Source: Pseudanabaena sp. UWO311
Lineage (GTDB): Bacteria > Cyanobacteriota > Cyanobacteriia > Pseudanabaenales > Pseudanabaenaceae
Reading direction: 5' to 3'
NCBI RefSeq assembly: GCF_006937785.1
Contig: NZ_SJEE01000017.1
Coordinates: forward strand, 1 to 64,000
DNA: 64,000 bases
Shown: positions 1 to 53,314 of the stretch, one piece after another
Position numbering within the stretch: position 1 is the first letter of the stretch
Layout of the letters: each line of letters opens with the position of its first letter
The notes under the pieces: model-generated
What the model was told of the DNA's origin: nothing
Seen by the model: only the letters and a program-made list of their open reading frames with translations
The model's database searches: none
Position numbers and translations under genes: made by a program

Positions 1-364
1 AACTTGAGTTCTTGGTTTATTTGTTTCTACAAATTTCTCTCCAGCTACCTTAACTATTTCTTGCACTTGTGTTAACGGAATATTTTGCGATCGCGCCAAC
101 TTTGCACAGTCCTCATATTCTGGCTGATTAATTCATCAAGCCCAGCACTCAAGTGCTGGCTAAGAGCTAAAGTCGGTTGAAACCGACTAAAGAATATTTC
201 CACAGTCCACTTCAGTGGACTTGAGCTTTGAGCCAAGAACTTGAGTTCTTGGTTTATTTGTTTCTACAAATTTCTCTCCAGCTACCTTAACTATTTCTTG
301 CACTTGTGTTAACGGAATATTTTGCGATCGCGCCAACTTTGCACAGTCCTCATATTCTGGCTGA
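1..364. repeat. 127-bp direct repeat of the larC 3' end
   Basis: Positions 1-127 are identical to 238-364 (offset 237 bp). The repeated part is the 3' coding end of larC2. The 110 bp between the copies is a multi-hairpin element (128-237). Copy 1 may extend past the left window edge. The intact reading frame uses copy 2, so copy 1 is a leftover coding fragment downstream of the gene. This reads as a local tandem duplication involving the element. Confidence 0.9.
128..255. mobile_element. multi-hairpin MITE/REP-like element
   Basis: It contains a series of short palindromes: CAGCACTCAAGTGCTG, AGTCGGTTGAAACCGACT, AGTCCACTTCAGTGGACT and CCAAGAACTTGAGTTCTTGG. The same order of hairpins and near-identical blocks (GACTTGAGCTTTGAGCCAAG) recur in the element at 15390-15537, so the two belong to one family. 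No transposase is present; it is presumably mobilised in trans. The larC2 reading frame runs into this element and stops there. Confidence 0.7.
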
Positions 365-735
365 ATTGTACAAAATCCATTGCGCCATGCAATCTTAACT
401 CTTGCTTTGCCAAATTCTGTTTCTACTTCGTGGATTTCCCGATAGAGAACTTTACGCTCTTGTAAGCGATATCTAATGCCAAGAGTGCTAGTTTCCTGAA
501 AGAGAATTTGTTCACAAATAGATTGGCGATCGCAGGGGCAAATAACTGTAATTAAAATCCCATTGCGTGATTTTTTCATGCCGATAGCTTGGGTATAGAC
601 ATCTAACGCGCCATTCTGCAATAACAGCTCCATCGTATAGGCGATCGCCTGAGCAGTCATATCATCAACTTGCGTTTCTAAAACTGCGATCGTTTCTATA
701 CTTTGAAAACCTTGAAATAAAGAAACATCGGGCAA
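187..735 (-). CDS. larC: LarC C-terminal part (nickel insertion protein, LarC2 frame)
   Basis: This is the C-terminal domain of LarC, the nickel-insertase that makes the nickel-pincer nucleotide cofactor of lactate racemase-type enzymes. The conserved blocks LETQVDDMTAQ, IGMKKSRNGILITVICP and PEYEDC are present. The annotated frame opens with TTG, but it lies in the -1 frame of larC1 and reads open back through the A9 run at 762-770, so it is probably made as a frameshift fusion rather than from its own start. The last ~20 residues (from TNKPRTQVL) are encoded by the hairpin element and its border, and are probably not ancestral. No larA, larB or larE is in view. Confidence 0.88.
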   Translation of the reverse strand: MPDVSLFQGFQSIETIAVLETQVDDMTAQAIAYTMELLLQNGALDVYTQAIGMKKSRNGILITVICPCDRQSICEQILFQETSTLGIRYRLQERKVLYREIHEVETEFGKARVKIAWRNGFCTIQPEYEDCAKLARSQNIPLTQVQEIVKVAGEKFVETNKPRTQVLGSKLKSTEVDCGNIL

Positions 736-770
736 TGCCCGATGTTTCTTTATTTCAAGAGTTTTTTTTT
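711..770 (-). promoter_or_regulatory. candidate -1 frameshift signal in larC
   Basis: On the minus strand larC1 ends with nine A (770-762), then CT, then a perfect hairpin with 23-bp arms (759-737 and 733-711) and a 3-nt loop. The larC1 stop TAA lies in the first stem arm. Slipping one base back on the A run gives an open frame with no stop into larC2. Expression of LarC1/LarC2 by programmed frameshift is known in Lactobacillus plantarum. Transcriptional slippage on A9 is an equal alternative. The 2-nt spacer is shorter than usual for ribosomal frameshifting. Confidence 0.6.
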
Positions 771-1640
771 GCTCTTACCAATCCACAAACGCAAAGCGTT
801 GGGAATTTCTAAGTCCTGCGTACCTGCACCCAGACCAACTTTTTTGATTTTCATTAAAGGAACTTCGCCAAACTTTTCACAGAGCGTAACTGCGATCGCA
901 GCTCCTGTAGGTGTAACTAATTCTTTTCTAATTCCATTATCAAACGTAGTCACCTCATGCATTTCCCATAATTTCAATGTGGCAGGAGCTGGCACTGGCA
1001 TTTTGCCATGATCACAATCAACATAGCCACCACCCGCAGGCAAAGCAGAGCAATAGATCTTATCAACTTCCAGCCAAGCGAAGCCTGCACAGGTACAGAC
1101 AATATCCACGATCGCATCGATCGCACCTACTTCATGAAAATGTACTGCCTCTGGTGCAATGCCATGGACTGAACCCTCTGCGATCGCGAGTTCTTTAAAT
1201 GTTGCTAAACTCCAAATTTCAACCTGTTTTGGCAATTTAGCATTACGAATGATCTTCTCAATATCAGGTAAGTGGTGATGAATTTGATGGGAATGATCCT
1301 TATGGGAATGTTTATGAGTATGTTCTTCATGGTTATGTTCCTCATGGCTATGTTCCTCATGGCTATGAGAATGAACATGATTGGCGTGGGAATGATTCTG
1401 TTCAATCGCAACGGTAGGTGGCTCTTCGCCGTTATAGTTTAATAATTCAACATGCATTTTTGTAGCTTCGATACCGCCACGATGAACGGATTCTGTCCAT
1501 AACTTAACTTCGCGATCGAGTCCTAATTTATGAACAATATCTTGTAAATACTCTAAAGGTACACCTGCACTCACCAGCGCACCTAGACACATATCACCCG
1601 CGATTCCTGTCGGACAATCCAAATATGCAATGCTTCCCAT
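750..1640 (-). CDS. larC: LarC N-terminal part (LarC1)
   Basis: N-terminal half of the LarC nickel-insertion protein, about 296 aa. It begins with the family signature YLDCPTGIAGDMCLGAL and contains FHEVGAIDAIVDIV and PVPAPATLKLW. Residues ~82-123 are a very His-rich insert (HSH, HEEH, HKHSHKDHSH runs), a likely nickel-binding or storage segment. I chose the ATG at 1640 because the signature starts right after it and AAGGAT precedes it. An upstream in-frame start at 1685 would add a non-conserved leader. It ends GKSKKKLLK at the A9 slippery run, after which larC2 follows in the -1 frame. Confidence 0.92.
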   Translation of the reverse strand: MGSIAYLDCPTGIAGDMCLGALVSAGVPLEYLQDIVHKLGLDREVKLWTESVHRGGIEATKMHVELLNYNGEEPPTVAIEQNHSHANHVHSHSHEEHSHEEHNHEEHTHKHSHKDHSHQIHHHLPDIEKIIRNAKLPKQVEIWSLATFKELAIAEGSVHGIAPEAVHFHEVGAIDAIVDIVCTCAGFAWLEVDKIYCSALPAGGGYVDCDHGKMPVPAPATLKLWEMHEVTTFDNGIRKELVTPTGAAIAVTLCEKFGEVPLMKIKKVGLGAGTQDLEIPNALRLWIGKSKKKLLK

Positions 1641-1686
1641 GCTAATCCTTATAAAGTTACCAAAATCTCCCCTGAATCCTATCATT

Positions 1687-1725
1687 TATAAATAGAGTCG
1701 GTGCTTCGCGCCGATTCTATTTATA
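1687..1725. terminator. intergenic hairpin, apex GC-TTC-GC
   Basis: Two 18-bp arms with two G-T type mismatches around a TTC loop. It lies between larC1 and the pentapeptide gene and overlaps the latter's stop codon. It is a probable terminator of the pentapeptide gene and one of the modular hairpin family. Confidence 0.6.
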
Positions 1726-2815
1726 GAGAAAGCCCGATCGCACCTTGGATATTTGCATCTGTCAAAATAGAGCTTTCTAATACTGCATCAGTTAAATTGG
1801 CATTAGTCAGATTTGCATTCTCTAAATTAGCGCCCATTAAGATCGCACCACTCAAATCTGCACCACCAAAGTAAGCCTTTTGCAGATTTGCGATCGCAAA
1901 ATTAGCTTGTTTAAGAATTGCTCTACTCAAATCAACTTCCTGCATCTCGGCATGACGAAATTTAGTTTCGATGCAGGTTGACTGTGACAAAATTGCCTTA
2001 TACATATAGGCTTGACTGAGATCGGCTTCACTGAGATTCGCTTTAGTCAAGTTAGCAAGACTCATTGAAGCATCGTTCAAAAATGTATTACATAGAGATG
2101 CCCCGACCAATTGTGCTCCACTTAAGATCGCGCCGCCTAAGTTTGCATTATTCAAAATTGCATTATTTAAAATAGCCTCGCTAAAATTTGCCATCAGACA
2201 TCCAGCCGTACTGATATCGGCAAAATCGAGGGAAGCCCCACATAAATTAGCACGGGTTAATAAAGTACCCCGTAATTTGGCTCGATTGAGCGTGGCTCTA
2301 CTTAAGTTCGCATTGCTTAAATTCGCACCACTAAAATCAGTATTTTGCAGATTCGCGCCACTGAGATTTGCACCACTAAAGTTTGTACCTTTAAAACTTT
2401 CACCACTTAAATTTACGCCGCGTAAGTCCGCGCCACTGAGGTTAGCAATTCCAAGATTTATACCTCTGAGATCTAGCGATCTCAGATCCGTACCAGTCAG
2501 ATTGACATCCTGAAGATTTGCTTGACCAAAGTTGACCTGATATAAAATTGCACCACTGAAATTGGCTCCCTTTAAATTGGAATTTACAAAGGCAACTTCA
2601 CTTAAATTCGCTCCCGATAGATCCGCATGAGTTAAATCAGTCTTACTAAAGTTGGCTTTAGTTAAGTTGACTTGGGACAGATTTGCACCGACTAACTTTA
2701 GCCCAGACAAGTCGGCTTTTTGCAAGTCGATCACCTCAGGCTGAGTTTTTTCGCGCCAAGCATTCCAACGCTCAGCACCGTCTTTAATATGTCGAACAAT
2801 CTTTAGATCAGCCAA
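1721..2815 (-). CDS. pentapeptide-repeat protein
   Basis: A 364-aa protein made almost entirely of A(D/N)LXX pentapeptide repeats from about residue 30 to the end (ADLSGANL, ANLSGADLRGVNL and similar). Such repeats fold as a right-handed quadrilateral beta-helix. They are abundant in cyanobacteria and usually have no assigned function. There is no signal peptide or membrane segment. The first ~30 residues (KIVRHIKDGAERWNAWRE) are a short non-repeat cap found in many cyanobacterial members. The start at 2815 is TTG with no clear ribosome site, so the 5' end is uncertain. Confidence 0.9.
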   Translation of the reverse strand: MADLKIVRHIKDGAERWNAWREKTQPEVIDLQKADLSGLKLVGANLSQVNLTKANFSKTDLTHADLSGANLSEVAFVNSNLKGANFSGAILYQVNFGQANLQDVNLTGTDLRSLDLRGINLGIANLSGADLRGVNLSGESFKGTNFSGANLSGANLQNTDFSGANLSNANLSRATLNRAKLRGTLLTRANLCGASLDFADISTAGCLMANFSEAILNNAILNNANLGGAILSGAQLVGASLCNTFLNDASMSLANLTKANLSEADLSQAYMYKAILSQSTCIETKFRHAEMQEVDLSRAILKQANFAIANLQKAYFGGADLSGAILMGANLENANLTNANLTDAVLESSILTDANIQGAIGLSL

Positions 2816-2914
2816 GATGGGTTAACTACTCAAATTGATGTTTGGGAATTATTCTAATTTAAGCTGTTTTCTAGAATAAATCTACACAAGCTAAATGGCT
2901 TAGCAAACCTACCT

Positions 2915-2949
2915 TAATTTACAGTGATGCAAAGCATCACTGTAAATTA
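2915..2949. terminator. hairpin at queG 3' end, apex GC-AAA-GC
   Basis: Perfect 16-bp arms around AAA. The queG stop codon lies inside the right part of the palindrome, so the hairpin forms the transcript's 3' end. Confidence 0.65.
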
Positions 2950-3878
2950 TCACTTACTGTTTTCGCATTGCGTTGCCAGCGATCGCGTTTAATCCGTCTG
3001 AGCGCTGAGCCTGTAAAATTTTGATCCCATTCCTGTTCAGTCATATTTGCTAGAGTGTCCAACTGAGGATCTACATTATGGGGAAAAGGTTGAAAATCAG
3101 ATTCCGTAGTTTCTTGCGCAAAACGTTGATTCCAAGGGCAAACATCTTGGCAAATATCACAACCTGCTACCCAGTTTTGTAAATTAGCTGCGATCGCATC
3201 AGGGATCTGCTCGGCTTTATTTTCAATCGTGTGAAAAGCAATGCAGCGATTAGCATCGACGACGAATGGCTGCGCGATCGCTCCCGTCGGACAAGCATCA
3301 AGGCAACGTGTACAAGTGCCGCAATGATCTGTGTGTGGAGTGTCAGGCTCTAATTCTAAATTAGTCAGCACCTCTCCCAAAAACAACCAGGAACCGTAGT
3401 CCCGCGTAATTACATTGCTATGTTTGCCAATCCAGCCAATCCCTGCTCTTTGGGCAAAAGCTTTTTCCGCGATCGGGCCAGTATCCACATAATATCGAGT
3501 TTGAATATTTTCCCCTTGAGTGTTTAACCAAGTTGCCAAAGCTTTGAGCTTCTTGGTCAAGACCTTGTGATAGTCACGTCCCCAACCATAGCGGGAAATC
3601 TTGCCCACATTGCGATCGGCTGAATGTTGATGAGGGGTGTAGTAATTTAAAGCCACACAAATTACCGACTTGCCCCCTTCCATTACCTGCGTAATATCTT
3701 GCCGCTTGGGATTTGTCATCCAATCCATATCTGCTTGATATCCCAGTGCTAGCCATTCCTGCAAGCGTTCTGTCTCAAGTCCAGACTCAGCTCTAGCTAT
3801 ACCAACTTTACTAAAGCCGAGAGCGATCGCTTTTTGTTGAATGGCTAATTTAATTTCAGCTTGCGATAAATTTTCCAT
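2937..3878 (-). CDS. queG: epoxyqueuosine reductase QueG
   Basis: Catalyses the last step of queuosine synthesis in tRNA, reducing epoxyqueuosine to queuosine with cobalamin and two [4Fe-4S] clusters. The 313-aa protein has the clostridial-type ferredoxin motifs CGTCTRCLDACPTGAI and CDICQDVCPWNQRF near residues 185-250. Its N-terminal half (GFSKVGIA, ALNYYTP, YGWGRDYHKVL, KAFAQRAGIGWIGKH) is typical of QueG. Length is slightly short for the family, which often carries a C-terminal HEAT extension absent here. ATG start at 3878. Confidence 0.95.
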   Translation of the reverse strand: MENLSQAEIKLAIQQKAIALGFSKVGIARAESGLETERLQEWLALGYQADMDWMTNPKRQDITQVMEGGKSVICVALNYYTPHQHSADRNVGKISRYGWGRDYHKVLTKKLKALATWLNTQGENIQTRYYVDTGPIAEKAFAQRAGIGWIGKHSNVITRDYGSWLFLGEVLTNLELEPDTPHTDHCGTCTRCLDACPTGAIAQPFVVDANRCIAFHTIENKAEQIPDAIAANLQNWVAGCDICQDVCPWNQRFAQETTESDFQPFPHNVDPQLDTLANMTEQEWDQNFTGSALRRIKRDRWQRNAKTVSDNLQ

Positions 3879-3921
3879 AATTATAGTCGCCGTCAGTATT
3901 ACAGCGCTTTGCGCTCAAACA

Positions 3922-3982
3922 CGAACCAAGAAAAATTTTAAAAGTGTTGCTTTGCAACACTTTTAAAATTTTTCTTGGTTCG
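3922..3982. terminator. long hairpin, 29-bp perfect arms
   Basis: Perfect inverted repeat with loop TTT and apex GC-TTT-GC. The inner module AAAGTGTTGC recurs in hairpins at 37108 and 53051 with different outer arms. It lies in the queG upstream region and 3' of the J-domain gene. Confidence 0.7.
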
Positions 3983-4059
3983 TTTGATCGAAAATTGTGT
4001 AACCCCAAAAGTTGAGAGGCGGCGCATTGCGTTGCCTTTCAACTTTTGAGGCTAGCTAA

Positions 4060-36736: not shown

Positions 36737-37443
36737 AATCTTCCCTCTGTAGATTACAACTGAGAGTGACTCTAGATAGTCTTAAGATCCTGAAAGGCTC
36801 TATGTTGCCAATATGCAGAACATATTACCTTCGTTAGAAACATATTTCGATGACTATGGGTATGAGTAATTAGACGTAATTTGTTTTATTAACCTAATCT
36901 TAACCTAGATTTAATTTATTATGACTGCCTACTTTGTGATAAGTTCCCAAATTATTTGTGATCTAGATCTCAGTCGAGCCAGTTTTATAGCTACAGTCAC
37001 TTGTTTCAGCCCAAGATATTGATGTCGGCGCTCCGCGCCGACATCAATATCTTGGGTTTTATGTCCTAGTATATTTTGCGACAGCTACACAACGTTTTGC
37101 ACTCACAAGCGAGCCAATAAATTTTTGAAAGTGCTGCGAAGCAACACTTTCAAAAATTTATTGGCTCGCTTGATAGAAAACTGCTGGTGGTAATAAGAAA
37201 TCGCACATCCCTCATCCGAGGGGCTGTACAAATCCAGACTGGTAACGGCTATAGAATGAGAAAATGAGTAGTGAGGACATACAATCCATCAAGAGAATGC
37301 CCCAATAGGTTTAACGATTCATGACTGTGCTTAACGTCCAAGTTTAAAAATGCTTACCGAACTTGGCGATCTCTATAATATGACAAAGAATCTTAGTCGA
37401 TTAGCAAGGCAAAGTGATGCCCATCTTGACTCTCAGGCAAAAT
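36737..37443. other. 707-bp intergenic region with two long hairpins
   Basis: 37010-37056: perfect 22-bp arms, apex GC-TCC-GC. 37108-37170: 30-bp arms with one G-T mismatch, apex GC-GAA-GC. The rest is AT-rich and shows no gene. The promoter of the phosphatase gene should lie near 37250-37400. Confidence 0.6.
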
Positions 37444-52952: not shown

Positions 52953-53314
52953 GGCAACTAAAATAAAGAATAAAGTTTGTTGATAACAGCATCGATAGAG
53001 TCGCGATCGCTATACCCGTCGATGCTAATTACAGCAATTTCCGATCAACCGAACCGAAATAAATTTATTGAAAGTGTTGCGATGCAACACTTTCAATAAA
53101 TTTATTTCGGTTCTGGTTTGAGCGCAAAGCGCTATATGAAACTGCCTTTGTTTTTTTAGAGCCTATGGCTAAAAATCTCAAAATCAGCTTTTAGCATGAG
53201 AATAGCTTTTGCTTCACATCATTAATCATATACTCAGCGAAAAAAGTTAAGATGGTAGACTCTAAGTATAGTATTCGATAATTCTTGTAATAAATAAGGT
53301 CACGACATCAAGTT
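52953..53314. other. divergent promoter region with 30-bp hairpin
   Basis: A perfect inverted repeat at 53051-53113 (30-bp arms, apex GC-GAT-GC, inner module AAAGTGTTGC). The remainder is AT-rich, with no gene. The hairpin lies between divergently transcribed genes, so it is in a 5' region for both. Confidence 0.7.

Follow-up and report, generated by a model that had tools for sequence, protein, structure and literature searches.

In Lactobacillus plantarum, larC1 and larC2 lie in two reading frames and are reportedly fused to give the nickel insertase. The dnaX gene of Escherichia coli carries the slippery heptamer A_AAA_AAG, with a stop codon soon after it and a downstream hairpin, and that of Thermus carries a long A run that acts by transcriptional realignment; the short dnaX product is a working subunit. 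LarC is a member of the family PF01969, of which DUF111 is presumably the old name.

For a DUF111 cluster, the available part of Antonov et al. (2013, PMC3711429) gives a frame change of up to 39% in E. coli, and for the Mg-chelatase gene a frameshifting efficiency of 63, 40, and 10% with 11, 9, and 7 A's, respectively. The same text infers ribosomal shifting where a single direction of the frame change is conserved and realignment where two directions occur. The reporters used there cannot by themselves separate the ribosome from the polymerase, and their yield rises with run length beyond seven. The DUF111 cluster is similar to the locus described here in being annotated as two genes with fused homologues elsewhere, and it differs in that no hairpin is described for it in the text of PMC3711429, where the clusters tested were chosen from a set with A-rich heptamers. 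Pseudanabaena is not named in the main text of that paper, as far as it was available, and the DUF111 cluster could include cyanobacteria. Mg-chelatase is likewise a metal-insertion enzyme with a -1 shift at poly-A (PMC3711429, available part), and its chlD gene yields two products from one gene (PMC9227772, available part); it differs in belonging to another protein family and in that its short product is a chelatase subunit. The Synechocystis genes for LarB, LarE and LarC replace those of L. plantarum, showing that the cyanobacterial proteins work, and most cyanobacteria have no LarA, so far leaving their nickel-pincer cofactor with no known user (PMC11796402, available part). No report of a larC frameshift in a cyanobacterium was found in the literature searched, whose coverage excluded most subscription journals. 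Frameshifting in the LarC family is already known; the hairpin-bearing cyanobacterial form appears to be new.

The larC gene of Pseudanabaena sp. UWO311 (genome of 5.2 Mb in 61 contigs) is located on the minus strand near the beginning of the window, i.e., the whole 64,000-nucleotide stretch analyzed, which opens at the start of its contig. Read base for base, the gene occupies two reading frames. The LarC1 ORF covers positions 750–1685 (minus strand); the ORF list starts it at 1685, and the ATG at 1640, with AAGGATT ahead, is the likely start codon, so delimiting a larC1 frame at 750–1640 that matches NCBIfam TIGR00299 (1.3e-63) and positions 1–238 of PF01969 in profile searches. The 3' end of this frame reads AGC AAA AAA AAA CTC TTG AAA TAA, with a zero-frame product terminating in ...KSKKKLLK*. 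The slippery run of nine A's (A9) at 762–770 (minus strand) is read AAA AAA AAA in the zero frame, contains A_AAA_AAA, is conserved in the relatives, and is the sole A9/T9 of the 64 kb window, compared with a mean of 6.03 in shuffled sequences. The frame change is limited on the 5' side by the stop codon of the -1 frame, located just upstream of A9 at 775–777 (minus strand), and on the 3' side by the LarC1 zero-frame TAA at 750–752 (minus strand), and the overlap between the two frames is 25 nt only. Beyond the stop at 775–777 the -1 frame reads EQKKTLEIKKHRALPDVSLFQGFQSIETIAVLETQVDD and is open through A9 into LarC2. The LarC2 frame, counted from that stop and including the conserved LarC2 domain, occupies 301–774 (minus strand) and matches NCBIfam NF052512 (3.1e-43) and positions 241–374 of PF01969. 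The two domains are collinear and, given the coverage of positions 1–238 and 241–374, almost none of the family is lost between them. The relatives in the PDB are 6bwo (LarC2 part) and 12bi. A perfect hairpin with 23-nt arms and a 3-nt loop at 711–759 begins 2 nt past A9 on the larC strand, and the zero-frame TAA lies within its 5' arm. The A9 run, the -1 frame leading into LarC2 and the perfect 23-bp hairpin 2 nt past the run had been described in a first-pass annotation of this DNA, and the reading agrees with it base for base.

Some other characteristics of this contig end were observed. The C-terminal tail of the LarC2 ORF, at 187–300 (minus strand), reaches a palindromic repeat near the contig end. 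An exact 127-nt direct repeat (window positions 1–127 and 238–364) is present at the very start of the contig. It is probably an artefact of the assembly graph (k = 127), and the 3' end of larC2 is therefore unsafe in this assembly. A palindromic element made of short inverted repeats is located past larC2 at 128–237, and the same element follows larC2 in another genome (G012, locus L005). Within LarC1, a long His-rich stretch, HSHANHVHSHSHEEHSHEEHNHEEHTHKHSHKDHSHQIHHH, at about 1275–1400 on the minus strand, is possibly a nickel-holding loop.

The PF01969 family was searched in 26 genomes of the host genus and in 38 genomes of the order (eight genera, one family). A larC gene was present in 37 of the 38 order genomes and in 25 of the 26 genus genomes, and it was split at the same place in 34 of the 37 and in all 25, respectively. 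The first-pass annotation had proposed that a frameshift controls this gene, and had pointed to close relatives with an uninterrupted frame and no A run as the observation that would contradict it. The split is conserved in every larC-bearing member of the genus, and the proposal stands. The single exception in the order is genus g3 (three genomes), in which larC is intact, with a single frame of 386–407 codons. This intact gene was either kept or regained, the LarC tree having two changes and weak forks (L035, with a truncated LarC2, was excluded from it). A lone second LarC2-like frame was seen in one genome (G002:C17:476624-477040), about 7 kb from the split larC.

The sequence of the 34 junctions showed a high uniformity. 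The run was A9 in 27 of them, A10 in four, A8 in one and A6G in two, corresponding to at least nine A's in 31 of the 34. In the host genus all 25 junctions had A9 or A10 in the phase AAA AAA AAA, and the lysine codons of the run were AAA in 75 of 75 cases, as compared to 387 AAA and 206 AAG (65 and 35%) elsewhere in the same genes. In two other genera (G033 of g6 and G034 of g7) A9 was found in the two other codon phases; any A9 includes an in-phase A_AAA_AAA, whatever its own codon phase. Both genomes of genus g8 read CCA AAA AAG followed by the stop codon, which makes the in-phase heptamer A_AAA_AAG, the exact heptamer of dnaX, with just six A's. An in-phase heptamer of the X_XXY_YYZ type was thus present as A_AAA_AAA within A9 or A10 in 31 of the 34 junctions and as A_AAA_AAG in two, the A8 case requiring a +1 change. 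The direction of the frame change was -1 in 33 junctions and +1 in one, G035, an 83% complete assembly of 320 contigs. Genus g7 comprises both A9 with -1 (L073, from G034) and A8 with +1 (L042, from G035), a difference consistent with a miscounted run, with true variation in run length, or with polymerase slippage. The frame overlap was at most 16 nt in 12 of the 34 junctions and at most 25 nt in 23, and the shift is thus pinned to the run in those genomes. The zero-frame stop was found one to four codons past the run in the host genus and farther in some other genera, and the -1 frame was open from the A run onward, into the conserved domain, in all of the 33 -1 cases.

The non-synonymous to synonymous ratio (dN/dS) of LarC2 was 0.07–0.16 in nine pairs of split genes from the host genus and 0.11 in a pair of intact genes from g3, and that of the LarC1 stretch was 0.00–0.07 across the ten pairs. 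With such low values LarC2 is read as translated, and it is under purifying selection as far as these ratios tell. A pseudogene is ruled out by the dN/dS of LarC2, and a recent mutation or an assembly error by the 34 assemblies split at the same place, several of which have one to six contigs. Homopolymers are error-prone and the host locus lies at the end of a contig; even so, a broken or misread gene has next to no probability. A different proposition is that LarC1 and LarC2 are separate proteins, LarC2 being started independently through translational coupling. A TTG is present in the LarC2 frame of the host, within the hairpin, and in G241 (L047), a cyanobacterium outside the order, an ATG overlaps the stop codon of LarC1, ATGACTAG, which gives LarC2 the look of a distinct gene under coupling. 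However, 11 of the 34 split genes have no ATG, GTG or TTG in the open LarC2 frame ahead of the conserved LETQ motif, and the opening of the -1 frame from the A run onward in every -1 case also argues against independent initiation, which we consider highly improbable.

We propose, with a probability of roughly 0.74, that larC is decoded by a programmed -1 frameshift joining LarC1 to LarC2. In this model, ribosomes would translate LarC1 as far as A9, where a fraction of them would slip back by one base on A_AAA_AAA and go on into LarC2. The product of the slip would be the full LarC1-LarC2 nickel insertase acting in nickel-pincer nucleotide synthesis, and we infer that this fusion is the active enzyme here. 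The non-slipping ribosomes would reach the zero-frame stop a few codons farther on and release LarC1. The A run would constitute the core signal, common to the rest of the order and to distant phyla, and in the host genus the strong downstream hairpin would probably lift the efficiency through ribosome pausing.

The slip could also be made by the RNA polymerase: in a programmed transcriptional realignment, the enzyme would add one A on A9 in some transcripts, from which a full-length LarC would be translated in a single frame. A9 is long enough for polymerase slippage, and poly-A longer than seven is cited as used in realignment in the available part of PMC3711429. At least nine A's are kept in 31 of the 34 junctions, although seven suffice for the heptamer, and all three codon phases occur. 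The one +1 case points the same way. On the other hand, the A6G heptamer of g8 is short for realignment, and the direction is nearly always -1, in 33 of 34 junctions of the order and in 26 of 27 frame-changed loci among the matches listed in a wider scan (21 of them outside the order). Two directions among orthologues, the signature of realignment, were represented by a single +1 sequence in a fragmented assembly. In addition, the hairpin, being past the run, would still be untranscribed while the polymerase sits on the run, and longer A runs also gave more frameshift product (40% with A9 and 10% with A7) in the available part of PMC3711429. We favour, with reasonable confidence, the slip of the ribosome, as suggested by A6G in g8, the constant direction and the position of the hairpin; realignment we regard as unlikely. 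Besides the run length and G035, the points against the ribosome are the 19 junctions devoid of a significant hairpin and the short distance from the run to the hairpin.

The 60 nt following the run in the host fold at -36.4 kcal/mol with a z-score of -10.4, and none of 200 shuffles was as stable. Among the 34 junctions of the order, 15 had a z-score below -3, all of them in the host genus (15 of 25 versus 0 of 9 in the other genera), and the control windows taken in the same loci showed 0 of 204 below -3 and 8 of 204 below -2. The remaining 19 junctions, including 10 of the 25 in the host genus, were without a significant hairpin. At 21 split loci of other lineages, no 60-nt downstream stretch was unusually stable (mean z-score 0.05, none under -2; G226, described below, is outside this set). 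As it is absent from nine junctions of other genera and 21 of other lineages, the hairpin is not required for the basic mechanism. In seven species whose hairpins could be aligned, 97% of the cells paired and 9 of the 24 pairs were changed on both sides. Neither value was reached in 500 shuffles, the number of further pair types was reached by 12 of 500, and slid alignments used as controls had zero to one pair changed on both sides. The remaining species had hairpin arms of different sequence, and the hairpin state changes at least five times on the LarC tree (several weak forks). In the 15 hairpins pairing began between +1 and +13 past the run, in L026 with a short helix of 2 bp that precedes the main stem, and in 10 of the 15 the main stem or its outer pairs started at +1 to +3. 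The classical spacer between slip site and structure is about 5–9 nt, and the +1 to +3 spacing is nearer than this.

Perfect palindromes are frequent in this genus. The window contains 42 near-perfect hairpins; the loop has 3 nt in the majority, most have arms of their own, and 38 of the 41 located away from larC lie outside genes. With a slightly stricter cut-off, 68 hairpins were counted in 11 genus samples, each of 20 kb (220 kb in total, range 1 to 21), two in six samples from other genera of the order (120 kb), one in three outgroup samples, and none in the shuffle control (one shuffle per sample). The samples are arbitrary stretches with a G+C content of 0.40–0.47 in the genus and up to 0.63 outside, and genes are taken as rough ORFs in all these counts. 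Within such genes were found one of the 68 hairpins of the samples and two of 39 in the window, the larC hairpin being counted outside. Three hairpins of the window (3919–3985, 37106–37172, and 53049–53115), with arms of 31–32 nt and a core like GAAAGTGTTGC/GCAACACTTTC, form a repeated subfamily, and a similar form is found after larC2 in L008. The subject of palindromes in Pseudanabaena was absent from the titles of the best-ranked literature matches.

The first-pass annotation had also suggested that the larC hairpin belongs to a hairpin family and shares its apex with terminator hairpins. The shared apex does not hold, as a single occurrence of CGGGCAWTGCCCG, the apex, was found in the entire genome, which means that the exact apex is not common to other hairpins and that only the kind of hairpin is shared. 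A dispersed (REP-like) repeat was rejected, the arm pattern (with up to three mismatches) and the apex being found in the genome at the larC locus only, and so was an Rfam element, the ten matches obtained in window positions 1–3000 all being below the gathering scores. From the survey of the genus and the lack of repeat copies, the larC hairpin resembles the common kind but is not a repeat copy. It looks new, is found in the host genus only (15 of 25 genomes), and seems to be derived from the perfect palindrome kind common in the genus. The suggestion that it was recruited as a stimulator is only partly sustained: the covariation and the palindrome kind common to the genus are in its favour, and the nine other-genus and 21 other-lineage split junctions with no significant hairpin are against it. 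That the larC hairpin stimulates frameshifting is plausible, with odds that we would put close to even.

The hairpin may be unrelated to frameshifting, one of the palindromes of the genus that settled in a tolerant linker while A9 works alone, which is compatible with the programmed frameshift as the explanation of the split. Such hairpins abound in the window and between its genes, they number 68 in 220 kb of 11 genus members versus 2 in 120 kb from six genomes belonging to the order's other genera, the split loci of nine junctions in other genera and 21 in other lineages have no significant one, and a process keeping intergenic palindromes perfect would yield covariation too. Yet they are rare in genes (1 of 68 and 2 of 39), whereas 15 of 25 larC linkers have a strong one, and each of the 15 has its first pair at most 13 nt from the run, with the frame and its openness kept. 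We see an unrelated hairpin as a real possibility that falls somewhat short of even odds. The hairpin might also serve as an intrinsic terminator, acting on transcripts antisense to larC. On the plus strand the hairpin is followed by AGTTTTTTTTT (AG and nine T's), so that a GC hairpin followed by a T run, as in terminators, is found on that strand only. However, the 19 of 34 split genomes that show no significant hairpin have an A run all the same, and a terminator leaves unexplained the two frames and the -1 direction; termination as the reason for this arrangement is improbable.

The distribution of the split outside the order was evaluated by drawing 242 genomes evenly from the class, 213 of them outside the order; the PF01969 family was found in 239. 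The 16 outside-order genomes with partial matches were examined, the others being regarded as intact on the basis of a single match each, with an E-value typical of full length, and four further genomes of the draw had a second match beside the full-length one. One of the 16, G226 (L044), shows the A9 layout, GCT AAA AAA AAA GAC TGA, with LarC2 in the -1 frame. The other drawn genomes of its genus match in one piece, and its split is apparently of separate origin. The layout was not found in the other 15 partial-match genomes, five of which were cut by a contig end or had one piece only (G063, G111, G130, G183, and G213). In five genomes a long linker is in frame (G039, G042, G045, G088, and G095, the last on the strength of a single 636-codon open frame), in three the break is elsewhere (G126, G222, and G238), G067 has a -1 change without an A run, and the last is G241, mentioned above.

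A pattern scan of the genomes of named species for A8 or longer followed by the LarC2 motif listed 80 loci of 115 stretches, of which 42 were not counted (six with a single half or with halves not in tandem, and 36 without a larC match). LarC1 and LarC2 were in tandem at 38 loci among the matches listed, with a -1 change at 26, a +1 change at one and a common frame at 11. The +1 locus, L132, from a metagenome-assembled genome (MAG), is the same sequence as G035. Among the matches listed, five of the 26 -1 loci came from this cyanobacterial order and 21 from elsewhere, namely Halanaerobium, Alkaliphilus, Tindallia, Lutispora, Cellulosilyticum, Loigolactobacillus, Halothermothrix, other clostridia and Bacillota, Poribacteria, Saprospiraceae and one Crocosphaera, and all of these 21 had A9 or A10. 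Loigolactobacillus bifermentans DSM 20003, a relative of L. plantarum, has a layout like that of the latter, its larC being split at A10 with a -1 change. In a different host lineage, this locus is unlike that of Pseudanabaena in having no significant downstream hairpin (z-score 0.11).

Runs of at least nine A's went with 26 split and three in-frame genes among the matches listed, versus one frame-changed and eight in-frame genes for A8 (Fisher p 2.8e-5, kinship ignored), an association that also suits realignment. In some of the in-frame A8 loci, A8 lies inside the LarC1 match. The existence of three in-frame larC genes with A9 indicates that the run alone implies no split, and the scan, which required an A run, is uninformative on the frequency of the split. 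In two Crocosphaera genomes, MO_192.B18 (L095) and MO_202.B2 (L117), the default frame is swapped, the A9 gene being in frame in one and needing -1 in the other; the same downstream TAG seems to be the end of the alternative product.

We tentatively propose that, in this genus, frameshift stimulators came repeatedly from a genome-wide process making and keeping perfect, sequence-unique palindromes. An older A9 shift of larC, at first devoid of a hairpin, would have gained, lost and rewritten a strong one among species, the RNA shape being selected while the letters and the peptide turn over freely. We hold this to be possible and somewhat doubtful. The larC gene offers a naturally replicated recoding system, in which 34 related genomes share the shift and either have a strong hairpin or lack one, and a genus with an intact gene serves as a control. 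It allows the contribution of a stimulatory hairpin at a poly-A slip site to be measured, and the birth of such elements to be followed. It also provides a warning, as in most of a cyanobacterial order a plain ORF listing presents larC either as a pair of genes or as a broken gene. LarE was found in the host, and the LarA N-domain was found in one of the 38 genomes of the order and in none of the other 37; with this domain missing from 37 of 38, the LarC1:LarC ratio may bear on the user of the cofactor in cyanobacteria. If the proposal on the palindromes is true, a rapidly evolving element would tune this ratio, and would do so in organisms where the nickel cofactor is made but no LarA is recognisable.
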